A stretch of DNA of 64,000 nt from Albifimbria verrucaria (Eukaryota > Ascomycota > Sordariomycetes > Hypocreales > Stachybotryaceae). The DNA lies in NCBI GenBank assembly GCA_020081605.1, contig JAHREC010000018.1:2790001-2854000 (forward strand), written 5' to 3'. Below the pieces are notes generated by a model. That model saw only the letters and a list, made by a program, of their open reading frames with translations. It was not told the DNA's origin and searched no databases. This document shows, one piece after another, positions 36,932 through 62,500 of this stretch. A program made the position numbers and the translations under genes. Positions within the stretch are counted from its first letter, which is position 1. Each line of letters starts with the position of its first letter.

Positions 36932-38015
36932 CCTCGCCACAAGTCCAATCTGCCATGGGCTCCAACCAGGACGATCCGGTCGACTCGCTTCCATCGTTCA
37001 CCAGCTCTTTTAGAGTCTCGCAGCGTCCTCAGAGTGACGAGCTTCACGGGATAAAAGATGATCTACACAGCCATCAAACTAAAGCATTAATAGCTTGAGC
37101 AACCAGGAGAGGTGCTTAGAGACGTACATCATCAACGCCTTAACTCCTATCCTCTACAGATCTGATGAAGTATTTCATAATCGACAAGCAATTAGCACAT
37201 GCTGGGTATGAGCTGCACATAACCTCCTATATAGGCACCAGACGGCAGGAGAGGTCGAACCGAGCGCACCGCTAGACCGTCGCAGACTTCGACTCCATAT
37301 CTCACATCTGTCTTCGCTGTGGTTTCGCTGCAAAATCACCTACCACTACACACCATCCATTTCTTTTGTTGCTGTCGTTTACAGCGGTTTCCCACCACTA
37401 CCAGAGTACCTCCATCCATGCTCACTTGGGGTCACTATTTTACAGCAAACCCTGTCCTCCAGCTTGCTGAGTTTGGGATTTGTCTGGCTATCGACCATTT
37501 TAGAGCTGGATGGTGGCTTTGTAATGCTCTTGGTTCGCTATGCACTGCCTTGTGCAGTGGAGAAGTAAGATCCTAGCTGTTTTCACATAGACCTGGAAGG
37601 CGGTATGATACAATAGAACAATTTCCATCACCAGCTAGACTTGGACTGTACGTAATACGACAGAGAATTCTTCTTTTAATCTCAGATTTCTCTTCGAATA
37701 TTCTTAGAATATTCCCAGGAAGTCACACGGATTTTCTACGTGCAATGAATTCTGCTTAACAATGTGCTGCAGCTGAGGGCAGCCGCAGTTGCAAAAGATA
37801 CTGGTCTAAGAACATTACAGAAACAAACTTATGTGCCCAGATGCTGACGATTTAGGAGTAGAATGTTTTGTAAATTTATTAGGTATAGGACTATTGGTAT
37901 TCACTAGTCATCATGGCTCTAAGCCACGTATTCATGCATCCGGTTCTGGAGCATAACCCTCCTTCGACTTAAATCAGGTTGCCTCGAGCAAGGGGCTGGT
38001 TTTTTCATAGTTCGT
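36932..38015. other. AT-rich island, right part
   Basis: Stop-rich, AT-rich DNA between the small Cys-rich gene and the end of pyruvate carboxylase. No gene or readable transposon domain was seen. Confidence 0.45.
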
Positions 38016-41000
38016 TCATGCCTTCGTGATGCGGCAAACCAAGTCGGAGCCGTCAACTGAATCGCCTTCCTTCACCTGCAGACTCGCCACCTTTCCGCTG
38101 TGAGGAGCAGAGATAACCATTTCCTTCAACACATGTTAGTAAAAAGCATAAGACATTTAAACACTGGGTTATTACTCACCATCTTCATGGCAGACAGAAC
38201 GGCAAGAGGGTCGCCCTTCTTGACATCAGAGCCCTCGTGCACTCTCAACTCAACCAAGACACCAGACATAGGCGCACCGACCTGGCTGGAGTCGCTGGCA
38301 TCAGCCTTAGGGCGGCTGATGTTCTCAACGGCGGCCTTCTTGTCCATGACAGCGACCTGTCGCACCTCGCCGTTCATCTCAAAGAATACCTCACGCTGGC
38401 CAGTGTTCTCACTAAGGGACCGACAGCAAGAAGCTTCAGGATGAGAACCTTGCCCTTCTCCAGCTCGACGTTGAACTCCTCGCCGATCTCAGGCTTGGAG
38501 AGGAAGTACTTGGTAGGGAGGACAGAGAGATCTCCGTACTGCTGCACGAACTTCTTGTAGTCCTCAAAGACCTTGGGGTACATGACGTACGAGGCGATGT
38601 CGCAGTCGGTAACGGGACCGCCGAACTTCTTGCCCAGTTCCCTCTTGACCTTGGCGAAGTCAACAGGCTCGAGGAACAGTCCAGGACGCTTGTCAAGCTT
38701 GCGGCGTCCGCGAAGAGCATCGGTACGCAGGGGCTCAGGGAATCCACCGTACGGCTGGCCCATCAGACCCTCAAGGAATTCAAGGACTGATCCGGGGAAA
38801 TCAAGCTCGGAGGCACGGGCCTTGACATCTTCGGGCGAAAGCTTGTTGGAGACCATGAACTGAGCAAGGTCACCGACAACCTTGGATGTGGGAGTAACCT
38901 TGACAATGTCACCAAGGAGGTCGTTGGCGTGCTCGTAGGCCTTCTTGGTGTCGAGCCACTGAGAGCCGAGACCAAGCTGAGAAGCCTGGAACATCATGTT
39001 GGTGAGCTGACCACCAGGGATCTCGTGCTCGTAGACCTCGGGGTCGGGACCAGCAAGGTGAGCCTCGAAAGGAGAGTACAGAAGACGCAGCTGCGACCAG
39101 TAGGTGTCGAGAGCTCGGACCTGCTTGGGATCCAGACCGGGGTCGAGCTCGCTACCCTCCAAGGAAGCCAGAATAGCGTTGATACTAGGCTGGGAAGTCA
39201 TACCAGACAAGCTGTCGGTGGCGGCATCGACGGCATCGGCACCAGCCTTGGCGCAAGCGACCATGGAAGCAACACCGGTACCGGCAGAGTCGTGGGTGTG
39301 GACGTGGATGGGGAGGTCGGGGTATCTCTCGCGGATAGAACCGATCAGGAGAGTGGCGGCGTGGGGCTTCAGAACACCAGCCATGTCCTTAATACCCAGG
39401 ACGTGAATGTCGAGCTTGACAAGCTTGTCGACAAGGTCCAGGTAGTACTGCAGGTTGTACTTCTTGTGGGGGTTCTAAACAAATATGTTAATCGATTGTT
39501 ACAAATTGGTGAGAAACGAAATGAAAGACGGTGTTCAATGGATGAGAATTGAGCCACTTGCTCGATTATGCCACCGTACTGAGGTGCTTTGCTTAATCTT
39601 TGGAAACGTTGTGGGAGCCGAAAGGGTGAAGATGGAGTCAAAAATCTCTCAAATCGACGAGGATTGATGAGAATCGAGCTACTTGCTTGATTCTTTCACC
39701 TTACTGAGGTGCTTCTTTGTCTGCAGATGGCAGTTGAGCTTTTGTTGAGTCTTGGCGGTATAATCACAAATGCTGCAATAGTATTTCCGTTTGGCGAAGT
39801 TCTCCTGATGTCTTTCCTGGGCTCGAGGATTCTTGACAACTCTGACGACACCAGCAACCTTGTCAAGATGCTTCTGGAGAGTTTTGTGATTCCTCAATTG
39901 ATTGGCAGCACCAAAGTTGACATCGCAAACGTCGCAGTACCACTTTTTGGTAGCAAGAGCTCTGTCTCGGGTAGCTTTTGAGTTACTAGCAGTTCGCTCT
40001 TTACCACGTGTTTTGGCGTCCCTGCGGCTGTTGCGTAGTTTTCTTTCGGCCTCAATTGTGTTCAATTCCTCTGCTTGGAGGCTGTCCGACATTGAAATAC
40101 CGCCTTCTTGTAATGAAAAGTGTCCGCAGCAGCCATCATACTCCAATGTGTCAAGAGACCAAGGACAGAGAGCAGGCATGCTATAACTAGCTGTCTTGGA
40201 AACCATGGTCCAGAACCAAATAGTGAGGGCTGCTTCCACAATGAGGAAGAGCGCACGAAGAGTTGAAGCATTTGAGGGTGGTGGAATTGGCGTCCAGCAT
40301 AGAAGTCCATGATGTGTGATGGAATAGCCATCAATTGACGCCTTTTGAACCCATAGAGGTAAGTTCTCGCCTCTTTTGTACTGTCCAAAGCGTGTTGCAA
40401 TACCGCTTCGTTTCTCCGTTCCAATACCGGTGTACAGCTTAGGACGGAAACCTTGCTTCTCCAGTACTACAATGTAGACGCCCCAACGTTGAAAATAGTC
40501 AACAGGAAGGCTTTTGAAGAAAGACAAGGGTGGCGGTGTCTTCGATTGAAGTCGATTCAGGAGATTGGGTGCGAATTCAAACGCTGATCCGAGAAAAACA
40601 GCTTGGAGGGCGTCTGAACTTGGGAAAAGGTAAGAGAAGACAGGGTTCTTCATGCATTTTGGTGCAATTGAGAGCAATTTCCAGCTGAGCCACATCATAA
40701 AGTGAAGGCTTGTGTTGAATTCTGAGCCGTCCATTGGTGTCAATTGTGCAGAATGCATAGGAGATTCAAACTGCAAGCCGTCCATTGTTGCCAATTGCGC
40801 AGAACGCATGGGAGACTCCAAGCCGTCCATTGTTGTCAATCAGAAAGAGTCCACGAAAGACTCAAAATCCAGGAGGTCCGTTGTTGTCAATCGAGCAAAC
40901 TCACCAAGCTCTGGGCTTTAATTTCGTTCAAAGAGAGGGAACAAACCAAGACAAATTGGGGACAATTGGGGCATGGAAAGGAGTGTGAAGAGGTGGAATG

Positions 41001-44000
41001 GTGTTCAGAAGAGGTTGAGAAGAGGAGGGGAAGAGGGGAGGGGGAGAACACTGATTCTCTTCCTTCTTGCCGTCTTAATCCAAGGAAAGAGGTAATTAGA
41101 GGTCGAAATAAATTGTCAAGAACGTACCAACACTATAAATCATGTTAGCAGGTGCGATTCATTAAAAGGGAAGGGGTATTCACTATCTCCACTATAGCAC
41201 ACGGTTCCTTCCACAACACCTCCAGCCTTGTGGACAGCCTTGATACCAACTTCGAGCTGGTCGATATCGTTCAGAGCATCAAAGACACGGAAGATGTCGA
41301 CACCGTTCTTCTTGGCCTGGTCAACGAACTGGTCAATGGCGTTGTCAGGAGAGAAGAGTAAGCAACACCGTTGGCACCACGGAGCAGCATCTGGAAGGGA
41401 ATGTTGGGCACGAGCTTTCGCATCTTGCGAAGTCTGTCCCAAGGATCCTCGTAGAGGAATCGCATGGCGACGTCGAAGGTGGCGCCACCCCAGCACTCGA
41501 GACTGTACAGGTTGGAGAGAGCATGGCTAGTCTCCTTGGCAATGTTGAGCAGATCAACAGTACGCACACGAGTGGCCAGAAGAGACTGGTGGGCATCTCG
41601 CCAGGTGGTGTCCATGAGAAGACAGCCCTTGTAGTCACGGACAGCCTTGGCAAAGGCCTTGGGGCCCTGCTCAACGATGATGTTTCTCCAGCCCTTAGTG
41701 CAAGGCTCGGTGACATCCACCTTCTGGCCCTGTGAGTTGTACAGCTCAGGCAGGATAATCTCGCCCTTGAACTTGGGCTCGCCAACCTGACCCTTGATGC
41801 TGCTACCGTTGACAGCGACGTCACCGAGGTATGCCAACAGCTTTTGGGCACGGTTCTGGCTGCCGACGAGGTCGAAGAGCGAGGAGTATCATCGATGAAA
41901 GTAGTCCAGCAGTTGCCGTCGATGAAAGTAGGGTGAGTCAGGAGAGTGGCCAAGAAGGGAATGTTGGTCTTGACACCTCGGACACGGAACTCGATCAAGG
42001 CACGGAGCACCTTTCTGCGAGCAATTTCGTAAGTGGAACCGTGGCATGTACACTAGACGGGCAATTAGCATCTCGATTTTCACAAATTGATTCTTGATGA
42101 TGGCTTACCTTGGTCAACATGCTGTCATAGTAGGCTGTTTAGATAACAGTTAGCAACAAACATGATAAAACAATGAATTACCCAAAAGGTTGTTCGGGTT
42201 TAGAGGAGAAAGGTATTACTCACGTGTGATAACAGCACCAGCAAAACCGTTGCCACCATCAAGACGAACACCGTTACCACCCGCTGATCGGTAGACTTCA
42301 ATCTTGCCAGTGTCAGGTCGGAAGGCCTGGGAAGGATCCTCAGTGGTGATACGGCACTGGATAGCGAAACCACGGGTGGAGATGCGGTCCTGGGTGAGAC
42401 CAAGCTGGGAGAGGGTGGCTCCTGCAGCAATCTGGATCTGGGCGGCGACAATGTCGATGCCAGTAATTTCCTCGGTGATAGTGTGCTCGACCTGGATACG
42501 AGGGTTGATCTCAATGAAGTAGTAGCGGTTCTGCTGGTCGACCAGGAACTCCGCAGTGCCAGCATTGCGGTAGTTGACGGACTTGGCCAGTCTGACAGCG
42601 TCGTTGAGGATAGCATCCCTCACCTCGGCGGGGAGATCCTTGGCAGGGGCGATCTCGACGACCTTCTGGTGGCGACGCTGGACAGAGCAGTCACGCTCGT
42701 AGAGGTGCACAACGTTTCCGTGGTTGTCACCCAGGAGCTGGACCTCGATGTGCTTGGGCTTGTCCAGGAAACGCTCAACAAAGACTGTGCCGTTGCCGAA
42801 GGCCGACTTGGCCTCGGAAGTGGCTCGCTCAAAGTTCTCCTTCAGGGACTCGGCATCGCGGACGACACGCATACCACGGCCACCACCACCGAAGGCAGCC
42901 TTGATAATGATGGGGAAGCCATACTGATCGGTGAAAGACTTGACCTCCTCGTACTTCTCCACGGCACCCTCGGTACCGGGAACAACAGGCACATTGGAGG
43001 CAATGGCCAGCTTACGTGCAGAAACCTTGTCACCGAGGGCATCAATGACATCGGCGCTGGGTCCGACAAACTAATTCGGGGTGCATGTGTTAGCGGGCGC
43101 ATGTCCACTTTTTAACAGATTCGGCTTATCATGGAGGGTAACTTACAATGAGACCAGCCTTCTCGACGTTGCGAGCGAACTCGGCGTTCTCAGAGAGGAA
43201 ACCGTAGCCTGTTTCGGTCAGTGGGAGAATCAATTGGCCTTGGCAATTGGAGATTTACCTGGGTGGATCATTTGAGCACCGTGCTCGACGGCGATCTTGA
43301 TGATTTCGTCGCCGGCAAGATAAGCTCCGACGGGGGTATATTGACCACGCTTGCCAATGACGTAGGCTTCGTCGGCCTCTGTTATCAGATAATGTTAGCA
43401 AAGAAAAAAAAGCAAAACTCCATGACGGAATGGTGGGTGATAAGGAAATCGTACTCTGTCGGTGCATGCTCAGACGATCCTCATAACTGGTATGGGTCAG
43501 TGACTGTCTGCGCGTAATTTTATGCCGCTAGTAATTGGGGCGTTACCTGAAGACCGCGATGGTGTGCAGGGAAAGTTCGTGAGCCTGGGATCACATGTCA
43601 GCAGGGCGTCTAATGGGTAGAACCAAGGGGCTGGCATACGGTTCTGAAAATCTGTTAAGCGGTCGTAATGTCAGTCTCAAATCTCGGTACTATTAGGAGC
43701 ATTGAACTTCAGGGTCATCGTACTCGGATGGCTGCAGTCTGTTAGCTGTGTGCTCATGGTGGTGGCAGAGCGCCGATGAGGGGCAACTTACGGATTTCAC
43801 CACGGTTGGCGACTGAGACAAGGAAAAAACAATGTCAGCAAGTTTCCTTAAAGTATGACTCGAGGCCATATCTCGAGAATTCCGCGTCTGAGAAGACACA
43901 GGCTCGGCAACTCACCAAGGATCTTCTTCAGCTGCATGATGCTGGAGTTGGCACGGATGTGGTGCACGGTGGGGGCCTCCTTGGGCTCGACGTCGTCTTC

Positions 44001-44048
44001 GTCGAAGACATCGTGAAAGGTCAGCGGCTGCTGAGGAAGGGCAGCCAT
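38016..44048 (-). CDS. pyc: Pyruvate carboxylase, 14 exons, interrupted by an endonuclease-bearing intron
   Basis: Biotin enzyme making oxaloacetate from pyruvate, bicarbonate and ATP. Exons: 43916..44048, 43792..43812, 43724..43731, 43640..43651, 43547..43584, 43455..43486, 43259..43378, 43147..43208, 42224..43070, 42109..42134, 41184..42052, 41128..41132, 38180..39474, 38016..38123. Biotin carboxylase shows [19 protein letters not shown] and [14 protein letters not shown]; the carboxyltransferase shows [29 protein letters not shown] and [15 protein letters not shown]; the biotin carrier shows AMKM with the biotinyl Lys at the exon 13/14 border. The N-terminus ([19 protein letters not shown]) is acidic, not a presequence, so the enzyme is cytosolic as in aspergilli. 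Three bases are missing (near 41354, 41883 and 38420, each in a C run). Corrected, the frame is exactly 1192 codons plus stop. Confidence 0.97.
39541..39715 (-). repeat. Direct duplication of the endonuclease ORF 3' end
   Basis: Segments 39541..39590 and 39666..39715 align along their whole length (by eye about 42 of 50 positions). Both contain the core TACTGAGGTGCTT. The inner copy includes the ORF stop codon; the outer copy lies between the stop and the 3' splice site. Confidence 0.8.
39679..40830 (-). CDS. Intron-encoded GIY-YIG endonuclease with two C2H2 zinc fingers
   Basis: The 383-codon ORF starts at the first ATG (40830). Residues 1-40 are a short repeat ([34 protein letters not shown]). 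A helical region follows. Residues 115-207 form a GIY-YIG nuclease domain: GVY (117-119), YTG (133-135) in KLYTGIGT, catalytic-type Arg147 in GIATRFGQY, and the metal-site Glu199 in [13 protein letters not shown]. Residues 255-295 are a basic linker. Two U1/matrin-style zinc fingers follow, [10 protein letters not shown]...NH(x5)H at 298-321 and [10 protein letters not shown]...CH(x5)H at 351-374, both C-x2-C-x12-H-x5-H. GIY-YIG enzymes cut DNA, and homing members pair the nuclease with DNA-binding modules such as fingers. It is intact while many neighbouring genes contain sequence gaps. Penelope elements also have GIY-YIG domains, but no reverse transcriptase is present here. Confidence 0.85.
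   Translation of the reverse strand: MDGLESPMRSAQLATMDGLQFESPMHSAQLTPMDGSEFNTSLHFMMWLSWKLLSIAPKCMKNPVFSYLFPSSDALQAVFLGSAFEFAPNLLNRLQSKTPPPLSFFKSLPVDYFQRWGVYIVVLEKQGFRPKLYTGIGTEKRSGIATRFGQYKRGENLPLWVQKASIDGYSITHHGLLCWTPIPPPSNASTLRALFLIVEAALTIWFWTMVSKTASYSMPALCPWSLDTLEYDGCCGHFSLQEGGISMSDSLQAEELNTIEAERKLRNSRRDAKTRGKERTASNSKATRDRALATKKWYCDVCDVNFGAANQLRNHKTLQKHLDKVAGVVRVVKNPRAQERHQENFAKRKYYCSICDYTAKTQQKLNCHLQTKKHLSKVKESSK
40725..40902 (-). repeat. Tandem repeat of 45-51 bp at the 5' end of the endonuclease ORF
   Basis: About four imperfect copies begin at 40725, 40775, 40820 and 40871 (the last partial), each carrying the shared core GTCCATTGTTGTCAAT or a variant on the plus strand. The downstream copies are translated as the MDGL..SP.RSAQL repeat. 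The upstream copies lie before the first ATG and end in a TGA, so the repeat number affects the N-terminus. Confidence 0.8.
40831..41127 (-). promoter_or_regulatory. CT-rich leader inside the intron, possible promoter of the endonuclease gene
   Basis: Between the 5' splice site and the ORF, the sense strand has a long pyrimidine tract (about 40990-41060), like fungal core promoters. This suggests that the ORF could be transcribed on its own and not only as excised intron RNA. No TATA box was identified. Confidence 0.35.
41128..41132 (-). other. 5-nt microexon of pyruvate carboxylase (exon 12)
   Basis: The bases TGTTG are flanked by ..TTTATAG upstream (51-bp intron 41133..41183, branch CTAAC) and by GTACGT of the large intron downstream. 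They supply the last two bases of the Met codon and the Leu codon of the conserved GDML string. Without them the frame is lost. Confidence 0.85.
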
Positions 44049-47000
44049 GTTGAAAATTGGGTATTAGGAGAGTTGTCGAGGTTGTAGGAGGGAAGAGGAC
44101 GATGGAGGAGCCGAACAGAACCGAGCTCTCTGTGTCGAACAGGCGCTGCGGGGCAAGTTCGAGCGAAGGCGAGCGAGGGAGGATGCGCGGCAGATTGTGG
44201 GGTAGCACAACAGCAGCTAGCAAGGTAGAGCTCCAGTCGTAACGAGCTACCGGGATAAGTATAGCTGAGCAAAGGTTGGATGGTATCGTCACGCAACAGA
44301 GCCCTCTGCAGGTGATGGGGATGGAGCGCGCGGTGAAGGGAGACAGCAGCTGCTTAGGAGGCAGACCAGAGCCGTCAAGAGTGAGTTGGAGGGAGAGAGA
44401 ATGAAGAGGGAGTCGAAGGGGAGGAGGGGAGGGAGGTCTAGAAGAAATAAGGGCTCGTCGAGGAGGGGCAATTGGCAGACCCTGGCACCCTGAGGCTAAG
44501 GTCCTAACCTTGGGTCAGTAGGCACGGAGTACCCCTCGTAGTGCTCCGGACAGAGTACAGGTACAGGTAGCTCACCTCACCTGAACCATCAATAAGCTTG
44601 CTGACGGCGGCAAGCAGCACCACGCACCACCACGCACCACCACCACGTTCCCACATCAGTGCGTGCCCATGGAGTCGCGGTGTCGGACGGAAACGACGCT
44701 AGCACGGTCGCGGCAGAGCCAAAACACTCATGTGCTCGGATTGGGCTTTCGTCGCAGGGTGGCGGGTCGGACGGGGTCGTGATAGTCTCAAGTGTCTGGC
44801 GGAGGAGGGGTGAGATGGCTTTGGTTCGAATGGTCAACCTCGCAAAGCTTCAGAAACTGCTGAAAATAGAACAATTATGTTTGGGCCCTTTACTGTACGG
44901 ATAGTTGCTACGCTTTTTCTGTCTTGGGGGAGGTTTATTCCTGGCTGTAAAGAACCGCGGCATCGTCAAGTGCCTTATCTGCTGTCCTCGGCCTCAGCCC
45001 TGTTCGGCTATTTGGTTGTATCGATGGATGGTAAGTTAAGGTATGTAGGTATAGCAACCGTAGGCATCGTCCCTCCTCACCCGGTCAACTCAGGTCGGCC
45101 CCGTCGTCCCCAGCATATGGGCTCTCCGTTTGCAACATAGGGAATGCCAATCCAATCGGGCCAAGAACTCTTGATTTAGCACTGACACAGCTGTTGAGAC
45201 ACTGGTTCTGCCACATCTCAGGTGAAGGGGCGGGCATACGTAGCCTCCCCGAGCGGCGAGCCAACACGGACCTCGAATCGACAGTGGTATCTTCGAGCCA
45301 GGCTAACCTTATTCCCGTAGACACAATTTCTAAAATTCAAAGTAAATTCTATCATCGCCTTGGTGCAACCCTGCCAGTTGACCAGTAAATCAAGAATCTC
45401 TTTTTGTGATTTTTCTTATTTTGGTCATGACACTGGGGATGTATCTTGTCATGTCTTCACTTACGTCTTCGGCCCCAAGTGATCTGCAGCTTACCCCTTC
45501 GCTTGTCGACATGCTTGATGCAATGGTCCCCACGTTTTTTTTTCCTCTTCTGACACATGTTGCTTTTGGGAAGCAAAAAGACGGCATTGGCCAATGGGCG
45601 TTTTGCGATAATGGAATTCGTTACCAACGAGGCTAGAGAGCTTACGTTTAAGGTTGTCTCTCCAATAGCGCTCAGACTTCCTGCCTCGACTCGTTGCCAA
45701 TCCTCCCTCCTACGTTTGCTGCTTCGCACGGGCTGGCCTGTCCCACCGTGGCTCATCCTTTGGCTGATATCAGCGGCCTCTCGTTTGTCGTTGCAATTCT
45801 ACCCCGATCCCCTGTCCTGCACGCTCTTCATCCTCCCGCCTGATCAGCGGCCCACAATGTGGTTCGCTGCGCTGCGGGAACCACGGCTTCTGCGAGCCTC
45901 AAGTGCGTGATGGTGGGTGGCACAATCAACGCACACCGACAGGCATTGACCGCAAGCCCGCTCGTGCGGCTGCATTGCTCAACATCTCTTGTTTCTGCGC
46001 CAGATACGTCTCGGCTTTCTACCCGGGCCGCTAGCGACCAGCATCTTGGGAGAGGCTATCCATGACACACCATCCTCCGGGACCCATTTCATCGTGACAA
46101 TATCTCTCACTAACAAGTTTAAAAAATTATCAAAAACAGCCTCAACTCCCCGCTTATAAGCTGCTATATAGCCGATATGGGTGCATCTCGACTTGCTTGG
46201 CGTGTCTCTGGCCTGCAAAACCACTCTCCCTTTCAACCGACCTCGGCTGTACAGACTAAACCACCGACCTCGGTCTCGATGCAGTAATGCCGGCTCTTGT
46301 TCAGATCCACAACCTCGTTCCTACATGTCACCTTGCCGAGAGATCCCCATCCTCCCTTCAGCACATGATGATTTAGCCACAGCCGACGACAACCAGAGCG
46401 AGCGGCTAACAAGCCCTCCTTACCCAATCTGGCTCGCCATCCCACCTGAGCCCCCATGGATTGGTTCCCTGGTCGATCAAATTGATGACTCCCAGCCTTT
46501 TTCATTAGCAAAACGGCCAACATAAGCATGCCACCAACATCCTATCGTGCTCGGGTTATGATCTGTTCCCTCCCCCAAGGCCCAAAGGTAGCTCGTTGTT
46601 GTTCACAATTCGCGCGTTTCACGGCTACCATCGCCCCACCGATTCGCCGCGTCGGCTGAGCTATTTACAGATGCGATACCATGACTGCCGGAGATGTCCA
46701 CGTTGCTGGTGGCTTTCTAATTTTGCGGACCCCACTGTAGTTTGCTCATCTTTTGCACAAGTTGTAAGCAGCCATTGGCAAGCGTAGTCCAACCAGATCT
46801 CCCGGGGTCGCAGAGGCCTGCTTCTGTTTCGTGCGGTTCGAGTGAGCCCCAGGTCAGTGAAACACAAAGGGACGCCTCCGATAAGCTTCATCTAGACAAG
46901 TTTCAGACTACGGCAAGGTTCACACAGACTCGTGTCCTTGGCAGCAGCAAAGTCCATTCCTCACAGCCACTTGTCTAGTCCTGGCAATCTATGGATCTGC

Positions 47001-48904: not shown

Positions 48905-49734
48905 CTTTTCTGCGCTTTTGGTGTATCCGGCGAGAGCGCGTGAACAATTGAAGGTCAAGGGCGAGCGAGAGTAGTAGTAGCTCCGATATCGAAGAGGTGC
49001 TAAGCTGCGCCGAAAATTCGCGGCGGGCTGGGAACCATCACGTGACCTTCCCAACCAGGCACAATCGCTCCGTATCACCTCCGAGACCAGGATTCTCGTG
49101 CATCTGCCTCATCCAAAAGAGCCAATGGGCTCCCAAGGTAGGCCTGAATGTACGACATCAATTGAGAAAACAGGCCTTATTACCGGTATCGCCATTCCGA
49201 GCTGGATCTTGATTCCTTGCATCATCAGCTACTTCCAAGTATTTGGGAGGCTAGACACGGTTGAGATTATTTACAGTGGGTGGACAAAAGTTTCGCCTGC
49301 CTCGCGATTTCTATTGGCATAAAAGGCCTAAGCCCAAGTCGTTTCCCGATACGCATGCTTTCCGTACTAAATGCCACAATGGCTTCACGGACATTTATCT
49401 ATGGAAAGTATCGAGAAAAGTGTTGATTGACTAGATAACTAGTCATTATGGCAATGTGAGCCCTTCCCGTAGGGGTAAGCAAAGCGGAAAGCCAGGTAGG
49501 CTCTAGGGTATGTCAAAGGCAATGTTAAGGGCTCTTGGTAAATGCCTCCGGCGGCGATTGCATCGAGCCGGCCTCGCTACGCTCGATATCACGATTATCA
49601 AGACTTGAAGTAGCCGGTCCAGCAACATCGTTATAGGGCTCAGGGCTCAAGGCAGGCAGCCTCGGAAACAATCTGCTATTCTCGGACGACAGGATTAACC
49701 TGCCAGGGGCTGGCGCTAGATTGACTTCAATTCG
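48905..49734. other. Upstream region of MPC1 and spacer to the relic
   Basis: Promoter-like DNA up to about 49100, then mixed sequence with no gene. Short ORFs (for example 49098-49322) show no motif. Confidence 0.5.
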
Positions 49735-50800
49735 GAATTATTTGGGAAAGCCATACCACAGACATTACAGAAGAAACGTTTTTCTGCAAGTACTTTTGCT
49801 CTGACTTTTCGGGCAATCTCTAGCTTATGCTGTTACTCTTTTGTTCTCTAAGATCGTAAGCTCGGAGGAAGCAAATGGGTATTGTACCTCTTCGTATTAA
49901 GATGCTTGTCCAATTCACCTTGTGTAGTAAAGCTGCTCCCGCATGGGTCACATTGGAATGTCTTTTCCACTGGTCGATTCTTGAAAGGTGTAGAGCGTCT
50001 TCCTTCTACATTAGTCCTTTTGCTATAGCCAGATCAATATGGATCTACGATCGCTCACGTCTAGAAAGTTCATGCTGATTTCGGAAAAACTTATTCACAA
50101 TCTCACAAACAAACCGCTCAGATTCAAAACCAAGTTTTCTTCTTTTTGCCTGGTATTCTCGTTCATTCTGCCGCCATTAGTCAAGAGTGCTGTCCGTAAT
50201 TGTATGCTCGATGTCTAGGAAGACGTGTGCTAGCGAGTTGCCTGCCTGGGGCTTCTGCATGCCACCTTTGATATAGTCTTCCGACTGCAAATGCCTCTAT
50301 AATGAGCTCTCAGTGGTATATGACAGATCGCAAACCTCGCAATGGAACTTTTGTGTTTGGATAGCTGGGAGAGTCCATGGTCCAAAGGGCACTTGCAAAG
50401 ATAGTCTCAAGAAGTAACAGAAGATATCTGGTCGAGAACTTAGTTTGAGCTGGGGAAATTGGTGCATAACAGAGGAGCTCTTTGGAAGAGAGTGTATAGC
50501 CATCTTCTAAAGCCTTGCTTAGATATCTTGGTAGTTTCTGGTGAGACGTATATTGATCCCACCGGAATGCAATACCGTCACTCAAATGAGTGCCTGAGCC
50601 GACATAAATTTGAGGTCATTCATTAGCCTTCTCTAGTATTAAAAGGTAAACTCCCCATTGATCTGTAGGCTTTTCTGGGAGATCTTGAAAATCTGTAAGA
50701 AGAGGTGAACATTCAGATAGTAACCGTAATGCAAGCTGCACATGGGGGCTTGATATTTCCGTGAAGTTCGCTATTGTAAGTTATTCATTGGACTGCATAA
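49735..50800 (-). pseudogene. Decayed GIY-YIG/zinc-finger endonuclease, relative of the PYC-intron ORF
   Basis: Reading the minus strand from about 50790 gives LRLLSECSPLLTDFQDLPEK. At 50657 a GIY-YIG domain begins (WGVYLLILEKANE, stop, PQIYVGSGTHLSDGIAFRW), continues DGYTLSSKELLCYAPISPAQ, and reaches the Glu-bearing helix LLLLLETIFASALW. It matches the intact copy along the whole domain: WGVY, LEK, Y-G-GT, GIA-R-QY, LP, DGY, LLC, PI, E, W. After a frame change near 50360, three zinc-finger remnants follow: FHCEVCDLSYTTESSL-stop-RH, FQCDPCGSSFTTQGELDKH and FFCNVCGMAF. At least four in-frame stops and several frame changes show that it is dead. One TGA sits where the intact copy has Arg (GFRPKLY), fitting a C-to-T change of CGA. 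It is not inside any gene that I can recognise. Confidence 0.85.
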
Positions 50801-51370
50801 GCGTTCATTATCCGATGGACTGGGCTGAATACAATGAGAGGACAGAAATTTAGCATGCCTAGCGCAGATATCTCAAGGGATAGTCAACAAAACATTGAAG
50901 AATAAACCAGTAACAATGTAAGAAGATTTTATTGAAGAAGTGATGAACTTGGAAGATAAATGGAATGAATTGAATAAATTATAAATATTTCTAACGCTTC
51001 TTTTTAATAATACCCTGTATCCTGATAGAAATCGCAAGCTAGGCTGGCTTTTGTCCTCCCATTGTATGAACAAGGGAGCGTTGCTTCGATTGATCACTAG
51101 GCATTTCAGAAGGAGGATCTTTGCTAAACGTCTTGTAACAAAGGAAGACAATGGTTCAAGAGATGGTCCTTATTTTGGATCATATCGGAGGGAAAGGGTG
51201 TTATGTAGACATTTTAGTCTATGTATGTCTTCATTAACAGTGAACGATAGAAGCTCCCATCGTTATTCAAGACATTATTCAATTTCCGAGATGTGCCCCT
51301 TATAACTGATTAATGATAGAAGAATAATTAAAGTCAAATAAAATATTCTAAGTTCGAAGTTACATCCACA
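50801..51370. other. AT-rich spacer
   Basis: AT-rich, stop-rich DNA between the dead endonuclease and the 3' end of the WSC-oxidase gene. It may be the remaining flank of the degenerate element. The ORFs here are short and meaningless. Confidence 0.45.
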
Positions 51371-54300
51371 TTAAATACCTGGCCGAGTAAAGCCAGTGCC
51401 TTGTGGCCAATTGCCAATCTTTGCAGGATCACCACCAATACGAACATACACACCCACTGCAGGTATACCACCATCCAAGACAAAGAACTGATACCATCCT
51501 GGTGGACAGATGTGCGCATTGGGTGGAGCAGTAACAGTACATGTTGTACCAGAGCACGACACCGCCGGGAAAATCGTGCGAGCTCCCATTGAGTTGCCAT
51601 GGGTACTCGAGACTGAGCCGAGAAGGGACACTGTGATGGCTCCGTTACGTGCAGGACCGCCGGTGGTGAAGGTAGCAGTAGCGCCGTAAGCCCAATCAGT
51701 ATCTCCAAGCTTGAATGTTGGCCTTGGCTTGCCGCTGAGAAGGTACGGTGGCGTAAAGGTCTCGACTCGGTATTCCTGAGGGTTCTTACCATCCTGAGGA
51801 TCTGAGCCAGAAACAAGAACGCGTCCATCCAGCAGAGTGACAGCTTCCGAATGATACAGGCGAGCTACTGTCGTGTTGGCCATGACTGTGATTCGTTTGC
51901 CAACCGGCTTGGCCGGGTTGTAAAGGAGTGCGTTCAGGTTGGGGATGCTAGCGAGACCAAAGCCAGCAACGCCGTGCAGTGCGCCGTTCATGATGATGTA
52001 GGTTCCGTCAGGCAAGGGAGCCATGCAAGAGATTACTCGGGGCTGGGCATTCTCTCCAGCACCCATTCCGGTTCAGCGGCGTCAGGGTGTATCGTGACAC
52101 AGTTATCAATAGCGTTGGCAGGGCCTTCAGTCGAACCACCACAAATCAGGACACCAAGTGGCTCATTGTATGGAGCGCGTTGGGGCAAAAGAACCGCGGT
52201 ACCTTCAAGAGGGTAGGTACGGCCACCAAGAGGATCGTTCACTGCGCCAGGAATGTTTGGCAGTGTCGTGATAGTCGCAAAGGTCTTCTCATCCAGGATC
52301 CGAGCTTCGTTCCAGTAGGCAACAAAGATGCCACCCGAGGGTAGTACGCAGACAAAAGGATACAGGTTGTTGGGGTCAGTTCGCTCGAGCCAATCCATGT
52401 AAAGAGGAGCACCACCCGTGTATGGCAGAATCTCCAGGGTTGGCACAGGGGCTCCGTTAGATCCCTCTTCTCCTCCGATAACAAGAACGGAGCCGTTGGC
52501 CATGACCATAGCAGAGGGTACCAGCGGCCGTCTTGTAGCTTGAGAATATCAACATTCTCCTGCCAGTCATTCTTGCCGGGCACTCCAGGAGATCCATCAG
52601 GAGTGTAGAGTCGAACACCGTACGTGGAATCACCGGACCAGCCACCGATGGTGAGCTGTCGCCCGCCTTTGTCAGGAAGCGTCACACCTCCTGCGCAGAA
52701 AATATCCGTCTTCACATGCATTGGCCTCCAAGCAGCCTTAAAGTCGTCGAGCAGGGACAGATCCAGCTCATAGGCACCGGTAGAGTTGGGCGGGCCTGTA
52801 CCCCATTTCTCCAAGAAGGTAACCTTTCCGGTGATTGTTTCTGACACCATGAGAGGAATACACACTCCGCCGATGAGGAAGTCATAGGAGCCTGCCTCGG
52901 GTGTACCAGCCTTGGGATAGTCCCATACGTAGAATGGGTCGCCTTCCCAAAAGTAGGTTGACATCCTGGAACCTCCTCCACACATGGCAGAAGCATCTCC
53001 AGCACAAACAACATTGCATTGGGTGTCTGCAACAAAGCTGGATCCTGCTATTCCGATGTCCTTTGGATCGCCACAATAGCATTCTCTTCCGTACTCGAGC
53101 CCAGCCGCCATGTAGCCGAATTCACCACAGGCGTTGAGGCAGTCCGAGGGCTCCATATCATCAAAGATGAGCTGCCACGGGAAGGTCCGCTTATTGTTGA
53201 CATTGTCTAACGAACAGCCCTTATATTTCCAGTCACCCACGGCCTGGACTGGTGCAGGCGGTCCCACGACCTTGGGTTCGCCGACGGAGAAGATGCTCAT
53301 CCTGTTAGGGCCGCCACAGTCTTGCTCAGTATTGCCTCCACAAGGAGTGTTGCATTCAGCATTCGAAGTCGCCTTCTTCCCTCCGTTTCCAACCTGGTTA
53401 CCGCAGAAACACTGTGTGTGATATTCTGCGCCGGCAATTGAAAAGCCAAGTTTGGCACAGGCGTTGGCGCAAGACTCAAGGGTGAGGTCGGGGTCGTCGG
53501 GGACCTGGCGACTAAGTATACGGCCGTTAACGGCATCAACCCAACAACCATACGACTCCCACCCGTCGGGTAATCCTGTTGGCTCAGGCACGGAAGACGT
53601 GGCTGACGCGGTGGTCGATGTCGATCCTGGTGGTGGCCCACCACCCTCAACAACATACACTGATAGGCGGTCACCCGCGCCACAAAGTGTGCATTGGGAA
53701 CCCGAACATGTCATGCTACACTGAGTGCTAGCAACTGCCTTAGAGCCAGTATTCAGCTTATTGCCGCAGTAACATTCTCGTGAATACTCTACGCCAAAGT
53801 ACGTGTAACCGGAGCAGAAGCTGGCGCAGCGGGACAGCGTCATATCATCATCGGCAAACGTCTTGGAGTTAAGGGCACGGCCAACTGTAGCCTCCGTATA
53901 GCAGCCGAGCCATTCCCAAGTTCCAACCGCAGTAGGCTGACCAGGGCATTGTGCGGGTGGAGATTCCGTAGGCCCTTCCGGATCTGCGCTGGTTGTGCTT
54001 TTTACGGAAACATTAGCGTATGATCAGATCATCCATGCATCGGGAGTTTCGAGGAATCCGACTGGGATTATTGAGAAGGGTAACCATGTAAATGCACATA
54101 CCTCGATGGGTCTGGGGCTGCCTCTGGTAACCGTAGAGATTGAGACGGTTCGCTCCACCGCAGAACTCAGTACGGTCGCCGTTGCATACCGTGCTGCAGC
54201 CACTAGCTGCAGGTTTCCCCCGTTGCTGAGGTTGTTTCCGCAGTCTGTTGGGCAAAAGAAAGTCAGCAAGCCATGGACCTCGTATAGGATGGTTGTCGGC

Positions 54301-59590: not shown

Positions 59591-62500
59591 ATGCCGGACA
59601 ACCAGGATAACCAGGCACAGCCGTCGTCTTCAAGACAGGACGGACAGGCCCCAGGGGAACCGTAGAGGGCGCGGTGGCCGCAACCGTGGCCGTGGAGGGG
59701 CGGCAGCAGGAAAGGATCGAAAGCCCTCGTCTCAGCCTTCTCAACAACCTGAGCAGCCTCAGCAATCTCAATCTCAATCACAAAGCACACCCTCACAGCC
59801 GGCACCGGCAGAATCAACTGCCGAGTCATCACGTTCGAATCGTGGTGGACGGGGCCGACGGTCTCATCAAAACAGCAACCGGGGTGGCGCCCGCGGCGGC
59901 GCAAGGCCAGCCAGGCCCAGGACGGCTGGTGGTAGGGCATTCGGAGGACATCTTACATCGACAGCAGCGGAAGATGGCTCTTCGCCGAACCCCAACCTGA
60001 GCGGAGATGCTCCGGAGTTTGTCCCTGGGCAGCCTCACGCCGTTCGAAGGTAAATTCTCATCGAAACGTTGTAGATTAAACTCGGGCACTGGCTAACATA
60101 CATACAGCACTCCAGAAGCTAAACCACATGTCCAGGCACGCCCTAAGCTGCCGAAATCCACAGCAGAAGACCTAGGAACCAGGATTCACGAAGATATTGA
60201 TCATTTTAACTACGAATGCGCCATCTGCACCGATGACGTTCTCCGTACTTCCAGCATATGGTCATGCAACATCTGTTGGACCGTTGTTCATCTCAGATGT
60301 GTGAAAAGGTGGTATATGAAGACTCCTCAGCCATCGGAACCCCAGGCCGAGATGACCTGGCGTTGTCCCGGTTGCAACTCCAAACTCACCGAGGAACCAG
60401 GTTCCTATCACTGCTGGTGTGGCAAAGACATCAACCCTCGCCAGCAAGCAAGGCGCTCCCCTCACTCGTGCGGTCAGACTTGCTCAAAACCGAGAGGCAC
60501 CTGTCCTCACCCTTGTTCGCTCCAATGTCACGCTGGACCCTGTCCGCCCTGTGACCTGACGGGACCCATCCAGTCTTGTTTCTGCGGCAAGAATACTTCT
60601 CAAAAGCTTTGCCGAGAGACGGATTACGAAAATGGCTGGAGCTGCCAGGAGCCTTGTGAGGATTTGATGCCTTGTGGTGAACACTTGTGCGAGAAGCTTT
60701 GCCACCCGGGTCTTTGTGGCGACTGTACGGTGGTGGTTGATGCCAAATGCTACTGTGGCCGTCTCGAGAAGCAGGTACCGTGCTTTGAGCGTGAAGACCC
60801 TGAGCAATCGTTTAGCACTAAGGACAACGAATGGTTCGAGGCTTCTCTTAACTGTGGCAATGTTTGCGAGCGCGAATTTGACTGCGGACATCACAAGTGC
60901 ACACAGACGTGCCACCCTCAAGATGAACAGCCGGCCCATTGTCCATTTTCACCGGACATGGTCTTGAATTGCCCATGTGGCAAGACGCCTCTCGACGAAC
61001 TTCTCGAACACCAGAGAGAATCATGTCAGGACGCTATTCCCCACTGCGACAAGCCTTGCGAGAAGCCGCTTCCATGTGGCCATCTCTGCAAGGCGAAATG
61101 TCATGTCGGTGACTGTGGATTTTGTTACGAAATGATCGATATTACTTGTAGGTGCGGGCGAACTTCTACCAGATCCGTTTGTCATCAGGGCGACCTCCAG
61201 CATCCATTGTGCATGAGGACGTGTCAGGCGAATCTGAGCTGCGGTAGGCACAAGTGTGGAGAGCACTGCTGCCCTGGAGAGAAGAAAGCGGCAGAAAGGT
61301 TAAAGAGGAAGAACAGATCTTCTGAACAAGCCGTGCCTATCGAAGCGGAGCACATCTGCATCAAGACGTGTGGACGGCCACTGAAATGTGGTAGTCACAA
61401 CTGTCAGCAGATGTGCCACCGAGGACCCTGCGGAAGCTGTCCTGAGGCCATATTCCATGAGATTAGTTGCGATTGTGGCAGGACGGTTCTGCAACCACCA
61501 CAGCCATGTGGCACTCGCCCACCCGAGTGCCGCTTCGACTGCCAGCGACGACCTAGCTGTGGTCATCCGGCTGTTAGTCATAACTGTCACTCGGATGACA
61601 TTGCCTGCCCCAAGTGCCCATTCTTGGTGGACAAGTGGTGTGCGTGTGGGAAAGAGAAGCTGCACAGTCAGCCGTGCCATCTCCAGGAACCCCGTTGTGG
61701 CCGTCCTTGTGGCAAGATGCTGAAGTGTGGCTTGCATAAGTGCAAGAAGCTGTGCCACCGAGATGGTGATTGCGAGGATGCGGCAACCTCTAGTGGACAT
61801 TGTTCTCAAACTTGCGGAAAGACGAAGCTCTTCTGCGATCACCCCTGTCAAAAGGGTGCCATGGCCAGACTCGTAAGTCCACTCATTTATCTTCAGCGAA
61901 TGCCCCAGCTAACGAGTTAACAGCTTGCAACGAGTCGACCTCTTGCACCGGCAAGGTCACGATCTCTTGCCCTTGTGGATTGCGAAAGCAGGAAGTCAAG
62001 TGCCTCGCCAGCAGCTCCAACCCGACTCCATCTTATCCTGAAATGAAGTGTGATGATGAGTGCCTCCGCCTTGACCGAAATCGCCGTCTCGCCGCTGCAC
62101 TGAATATCGATCCGTCTGCGCATGTCAACGACCACGTTCCTTACTCTGATGAAACTCTGAGCTTCTTCCAGGACAACCAGGCTTGGGCTGAGACGCAGGA
62201 GCGGGAGTTCCGCGTGTTTGCGAGCACCCTAGCGAGGTCAGGCTACGATACAAGCCTATGCCTAGCCACCAGCGCGAGTTCCTCCACCTCCTTGCCAAAG
62301 ACTTTGGGTTGGAGAGCAGGAGTGAGGAGCCGGAACCGCAGCGCTACGTGGTAGTTTACAAGGGCTCACGGTTTGTGTCTGCACCGAGCAAGACACTTGC
62401 GCAATGTGTTAAGATTCGAGCTAAGCAGGCGGCTGAAGCTGCTGCGGCTGCGGAAGCTTCCAGGCCACCCAGTCCCCGGCAATTGTTGTCGACCCATACA

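Follow-up and report, generated by a model that had tools for sequence, protein, structure and literature searches.

A candidate spliceosomal homing intron carrying a GIY-YIG nuclease gene in the pyruvate carboxylase gene of Albifimbria verrucaria

The pyruvate carboxylase gene (pyc) of the ascomycete Albifimbria verrucaria is interrupted by a 1653-nt GT..AG intron (positions 41127–39475, minus strand) which itself encloses a gene for a GIY-YIG-type nuclease. All positions refer to the window, the whole stretch of 64,000 nucleotides that was analysed (contig JAHREC010000018.1, positions 2,790,001 to 2,854,000); it belongs to contig C15 in a genome of 48.4 Mb and 41 contigs. The sequence confirms that a nuclear housekeeping gene holds, within an intron of spliceosomal type, a nuclease gene with a GIY-YIG fold. 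We consider it probable that a cellular nuclear genome here harbours a spliceosomal homing intron; its homing is likely but unproven. In the proposed mechanism, the spliceosome would remove the intron from pyc RNA, so that the host enzyme is still made and the insert stays hidden. The nuclease would be expressed either by a promoter of its own or by translation of unspliced RNA, and with its GIY-YIG domain and C2H2 fingers would recognise and cut uninterrupted pyc around GATATGTTG^AACCCC (^ denotes a junction), whereupon repair from an intron-bearing copy would insert the intron into the cut allele. Each lineage would apparently have its own target, with fixed sites in pyc, in the SSB-type HSP70 gene and in the gene for mitochondrial aconitase. 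The observations behind this proposal are the anatomy of the intron, the restored coding sequence, the predicted fold, the catalytic residues, the nuclease family, the empty and occupied sites and the differing nucleases at one site; that the intron is spliced in vivo, and that the nuclease is expressed, cuts the site and brings about copying, is inferred.

The intron borders, the length of 1653 nt, a 383-codon open reading frame (ORF) in sense orientation and two C2H2 fingers had been described in an earlier reading of the same DNA from its letters alone (the sequence-only reading), and all were found as described. On the minus strand the intron (39475–41127) reads GTACGT..TTTGTTTAG, with the donor GTACGT at 41127–41122, the acceptor TTTAG ending at 39475 and a branch-site-like TTAAC (39487–39491) that ends 12 nt upstream of the intron 3' end. 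The sequence-only reading was silent on the fact that TGTTG, directly upstream of the donor, is a 5-nt microexon (41128–41132), which is preceded by a further intron of 51 nt (41133–41183; GTGAAT..CTAAC..TATAG). The pyc coding stretch immediately upstream of both introns (41184–41349; the exon itself extends further in this direction, and near 41349 its frame is broken by one base) ends ..TATAGTGGAGATA, and the coding stretch downstream of the large intron (38402–39474) begins AACCCCCACAAG. Joining GGAGATA, TGTTG and AACCCC gives YSGDMLNPHKKYN, which restores the coding sequence at GATA^TGTTG^AACCCC; the microexon is needed to give GDMLNP. The claim that the pyc protein fixes the borders at TGTTG^AACCCC was thus borne out, the joined residues being contiguous in all 120 listed relatives (of 481 matched). 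Without splicing, the reading from the upstream exon hits a stop codon (that ORF ends ..SHLLT), and in the downstream frame TAG is the codon directly 5' of AACCCC. The GC content is 45–48% within the intron versus 55–59% in the exon windows compared. The stretch of 297 nt from the donor to the ORF is 63% pyrimidine, as a fungal promoter might be. Rfam gave no match at E<=1 in 38000–44500 and so no sign of a group I or II intron. The 1653-nt intron is single copy in the genome as revealed by DNA search, and it lacks the combination of terminal inverted repeats and several copies that marks a DNA transposon.

The nuclease ORF (39679–40830, minus strand, sense to pyc) extends over 383 codons from the ATG at 40830 to the stop codon that ends at 39679. 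An in-frame TTG at 40839 lengthens it to 386 codons, and further in-frame ATG codons are located at 40785 and 40734, of which the latter agrees most closely with where several relatives begin. In 5000 same-length first-order Markov sequences, the longest ATG ORF had a median of 80 and a maximum of 259 codons; on the antisense strand of the intron the longest ATG ORF has 84 codons. The GIY-YIG fold region (40114–40491, minus strand) corresponds to residues 117–242 in the 386-residue numbering and contains Y122, Y136, R150, Y154 and E202. Residues of these types are typical of GIY-YIG nucleases, namely the tyrosines of the GIY and YIG motifs, an arginine, a following Tyr/His and a glutamate. Within a family of 70 proteins related to the ORF they are conserved in 68/68 (Y122), 67/67 (Y136), 63/65 (R150), 64/64 (Y154) and 60/64 (E202) cases. 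Two predicted structures match the GIY-YIG nucleases I-TevI, UvrC, T4 EndoII and Slx1, and the predicted fold is accordingly that of GIY-YIG proteins. For Foldseek alone the E-values were not significant, with I-TevI heading the list; a search of the BFVD viral structures gave weak rows with GIY-YIG proteins among them, and weak matches to spliceosome components occurred as well.

The catalytic residues and the predicted fold agree with the assignment as a GIY-YIG nuclease in the sequence-only reading. The Pfam profile PF01541 did not match the ORF at E<=1, and in a scan of 23 family members it was absent from the 25 of 45 families listed. Its sole match in the own genome (L015, 1501–1608) lies in a gene that is presumably Slx1. 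Comparison with PHROGs gave weak mixed matches including HNH families, with no family named GIY-YIG, and a PDB sequence search with the family profile found zinc-finger proteins among the best 60 of 99 rows. The two C2H2 fingers on the minus strand are formed by C302, C305, H318 and H324 (39868–39936) and by C355, C358, H371 and H377 (39709–39777). In most members the fingers match zf-jaz/zf-met; they match as U1-type in three of 23 and as SF3a60/Prp9-type in two of 23 (e.g. P0022, others of A1). A PCNA-binding motif was considered and dropped, with three matches in 70 proteins versus a shuffle mean of 1.25.

To assess the site in other organisms, the exon-joined pyc piece was used as query; 481 proteins matched, and the best 120 were listed. 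In all 120 the sequence SGD[M/L/S][L/M][N/D][P/S] is unbroken. Towards the presence/absence alignment that had been proposed together with the sequence-only reading, this contributes an unbroken site throughout the best 120 of 481, a set of more distant relatives. The list is biased in that site-broken proteins rank lower and full-length proteins exceed the length limit of the search; for the latter reason, counting full-length proteins as a test for unspliced calls was dropped. The closest listed relative in the searched region is that of Parascedosporium putredinis (Sordariomycetes; 95% identity). Most rows stem from metagenome sources and are probably unspliced ORF calls; 18 of the 120 begin M[L/I]RAL[V/I]E, near the corresponding pyc exon start here. 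Ten rows (hand count) carry an NCBI organism name and may be spliced models. Because most rows are probably unspliced ORF calls, the site probably consists of uninterrupted codons in many of the listed relatives, which would lack both the 51-nt and the 1653-nt intron. The 51-nt intron, with just 5 nt between it and the nuclease intron, is also apparently absent from the listed relatives; one may speculate that it was once a mobile intron and has since shrunk.

The sequence-only reading had proposed to test whether relatives of the ORF lie in introns of other genes. Four of the 70 nuclease relatives carry a host domain in their gene models, one that of mitochondrial aconitase and three that of an HSP70 of SSB type, and the two decayed relatives in the own genome (see below) give no sign of an intron location. 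In P0148 (named aconitate hydratase, Vermiconidia calcicola), the nuclease is followed by aconitase from QWDRRD. In P0160 (JGI source, 2439-base contig), P0174 (Alternaria alternata) and P0178 (A. arborescens) it is followed by SSB-type HSP70 from TFTTVADNQQ, so that all three SSB joins are at one same codon. P0160 has a complete nuclease that includes both fingers. Between the serine-rich tail of this nuclease and the SSB exon lie about 10 residues, which is what a gene caller reading through an intron end would give. The nuclease is shortened in the Alternaria models, and P0178 has no fingers; this may be due to either the gene caller or decay. A further protein, P0150 (named CPA2, Neophaeococcomyces mojaviensis), was rejected as a host-gene join, as it contains no CPA2 domain. 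Guessing from the protein letters, A-N in P0160 possibly derives from a GCTAAC branch site. The proteins P0004, P0005, P0008 and P0156 end SS..(K/E/D)LD; as a guess, their D and stop codons might form an ACTAAC branch site before a 3' splice site.

Members with assigned organisms come from, among others, Dothideomycetes (Vermiconidia, Alternaria), Eurotiomycetes (Neophaeococcomyces) and Leotiomycetes (Pseudogymnoascus), as well as from Diaporthe, Zymoseptoria and Pestalotiopsis. Judged by sequence similarity, related nucleases are present across Pezizomycotina. Scans of viral contigs and one of GTDB genome contigs revealed no confirmed relative of the nuclease.

In the own genome, SSB reads ..KKR^TFTTVADNQQ.. 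and aconitase reads ..CIG^QWDRRDVKKG.. without interruption at the DNA level. The pattern is thus apparently reciprocal: the pyc site holds an insert here and apparently none in the listed relatives, whereas the SSB and aconitase sites are empty here and apparently filled elsewhere, the latter being known from gene models rather than DNA. In the two Alternaria gene models the SSB part is identical (182/182) and the nuclease part agrees in 148 of 238 residues (62%). Simple vertical descent is unlikely, because congeners with an identical SSB exon have nucleases of only 62% identity; the difference would be accounted for by turnover, or by more than one arrival at the same codon. A quick tree was computed from 58 of 71 rows, leaving out 13 short or fragmentary ones (SH-aLRT only, midpoint root). 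It places the three SSB-joined rows in a 24-row clade (100) which excludes the aconitase and pyc rows, and the pyc row with P0001 and P0014 (96) within a 22-row clade (99). With five labelled rows as its basis, the tree fits target-specific lineages.

The unbroken pyc site, the SSB and aconitase joins with empty sites here, and the differing Alternaria nucleases at one SSB codon support the selfish, site-specific nature that the sequence-only reading had proposed. It seems fairly probable that the essential nuclear genes of filamentous ascomycetes are host to an entire class of spliceosomal homing introns, each lineage with a finger-bearing GIY-YIG nuclease directed at one codon (of pyc, SSB, aconitase or another gene), which would spread by cutting uninterrupted alleles. 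A rival reading is an ordinary nested gene: a host intron would once have captured the nuclease, which would since have been passed on vertically, perhaps as a domesticated gene, with no homing. The single intact nuclease copy in the genome would agree with such a capture, and the SSB and aconitase sites of other fungi, known from protein models, may have held pre-existing introns. However, we regard it as unlikely, given the unbroken pyc site in all of the best 120 of 481 relatives, the nucleases of 62% identity next to identical Alternaria SSB exons and the three SSB joins at one codon. The recurrence of this codon in three relatives also makes it very improbable that a transposon or introner-like element happened to carry the nuclease gene and landed in pyc. 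In favour of such an element are the direct repeats within the intron and the decayed relatives outside recognisable introns, but it is at odds with the single DNA copy and with the lack of inverted repeats of at least 14 nt in 39400–41300. A maturase-like function, in which the nuclease through its fingers mainly aids splicing or regulation of its own intron without cutting, is very unlikely: the fingers, mostly zf-jaz/zf-met with some of U1 and SF3a60/Prp9 type, and the weak structural rows from spliceosome parts point in this direction, but the finger matches are weak, the finger class is common, and the catalytic residues of the nuclease are nearly always kept.

Two sets of observations weigh against a homing intron in a functional pyc gene. 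One concerns the decayed nuclease relatives, located at 50364–50735 on the minus strand (39% identity to the ORF, one internal stop) and at C10:1708955-1710074 (rearranged), neither of which shows any sign of an intron location. They may stem from ectopic insertion long ago, or be what is left of other lineages. Recent duplication of the pyc intron was rejected as their origin, as there is no DNA similarity at E<=0.01 and the protein identity to the ORF or other members is about 30–45%. The other is the state of pyc itself: its reading frame is broken by a single base at three points (near 41349, 41882 and 38402), and a 336-residue pyc fragment matches this locus only in the genome. Both facts would be compatible with a host gene that is a pseudogene, or with an insert that is not spliced. 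Since similar breaks are seen by eye in the SSB gene (L028) and in galactose-oxidase-like and NFX1-like genes (51980–52560, 61600–62050), we read those in pyc as assembly indel errors, a decaying pyc being the less likely reading. With splice signals and coding restoration that are exact and a nuclease family that is real and conserved, an artefact or decay is highly unlikely as an explanation of the intron.

Among known systems, GIY-YIG homing endonucleases such as I-TevI and those of fungal mitochondrial introns reside in self-splicing group I ribozyme introns of organelles and phages. They share with the pyc intron the fold of the catalytic domain, the conserved residues and a mobile intron that shields the host gene by splicing, whereas the pyc intron has spliceosomal borders and no Rfam ribozyme match. 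Introners, groups of similar introns in one genome, likewise bring new spliceosomal introns by mobile DNA, but the pyc intron is single copy and encodes a nuclease. Nuclear rDNA group I introns of fungi and protists carry His-Cys homing genes and so also place a homing gene in nuclear DNA; there, however, spliceosomal introns interrupt the homing gene, whereas in pyc the spliceosomal intron carries the nuclease gene (PMC9548176).

The nearest described system is that of the mirusvirus spliceosomal homing introns, named ‘shintrons’ in 2025 (PMC12768974). There, the homing-type nucleases are of GIY-YIG type in 132 of 334 cases, and the introns are mostly located in virion genes (PMC12768974). 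At the sequence level the pyc intron has features that define a shintron, namely GT-AG borders at which joining restores the coding sequence of the host, the lack of any Rfam match to group I or II introns, and a nested homing-type nuclease gene; a further such feature would be removal by the spliceosome in vivo. The common traits are the GT-AG borders, the lack of group I/II signatures, homing-type nucleases including GIY-YIG and a preference for target genes; unlike these introns of viral genomes, the pyc intron resides in a cellular nuclear genome, its family in housekeeping genes, and its nuclease has C2H2 fingers (PMC12768974). The sequence-only reading had held the arrangement to be nearly unprecedented. 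This has to be qualified by the viral precedent of 2025 (PMC12768974). For cellular genomes, no fungal spliceosomal homing intron appeared among the listed titles and abstract starts of open-licence PubMed Central papers (bioRxiv outside this scope). If filamentous ascomycetes do carry such a class, it would, as far as these listings show, have no earlier counterpart in cellular genomes. The gain of spliceosomal introns is a long-standing question. A fungal family at fixed housekeeping sites would bring the homing strategy into cellular genomes and make intron gain directly testable in culturable fungi. It may also explain some chimeric fungal gene models in public databases, in which a nuclease is fused to HSP70 or aconitase.

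The pyc intron contains two sets of repeats on the minus strand. Those around the ORF start (40725–40897; 71–100% alike) multiply the start-codon region ..CAATGGACGG.., which results in three in-frame ATG codons in the same CAATGGACGG context and in a low-confidence N-terminal extension. A 52-nt direct repeat (39538–39714) has copies at 39663–39714 and 39538–39589 (85%), so that the 3' end of the ORF recurs downstream of the stop codon. Bacterial promoter and terminator scans were set aside as inapplicable to fungal DNA. Outside the intron, a query with 49700–51400 gave 44 genome matches including itself, most of them 65–88% alike over a repeat of about 230 bp at 50830–51066. One copy of this separate repeat family, which looks like a MITE-type family, adjoins each of the two decayed nuclease relatives.

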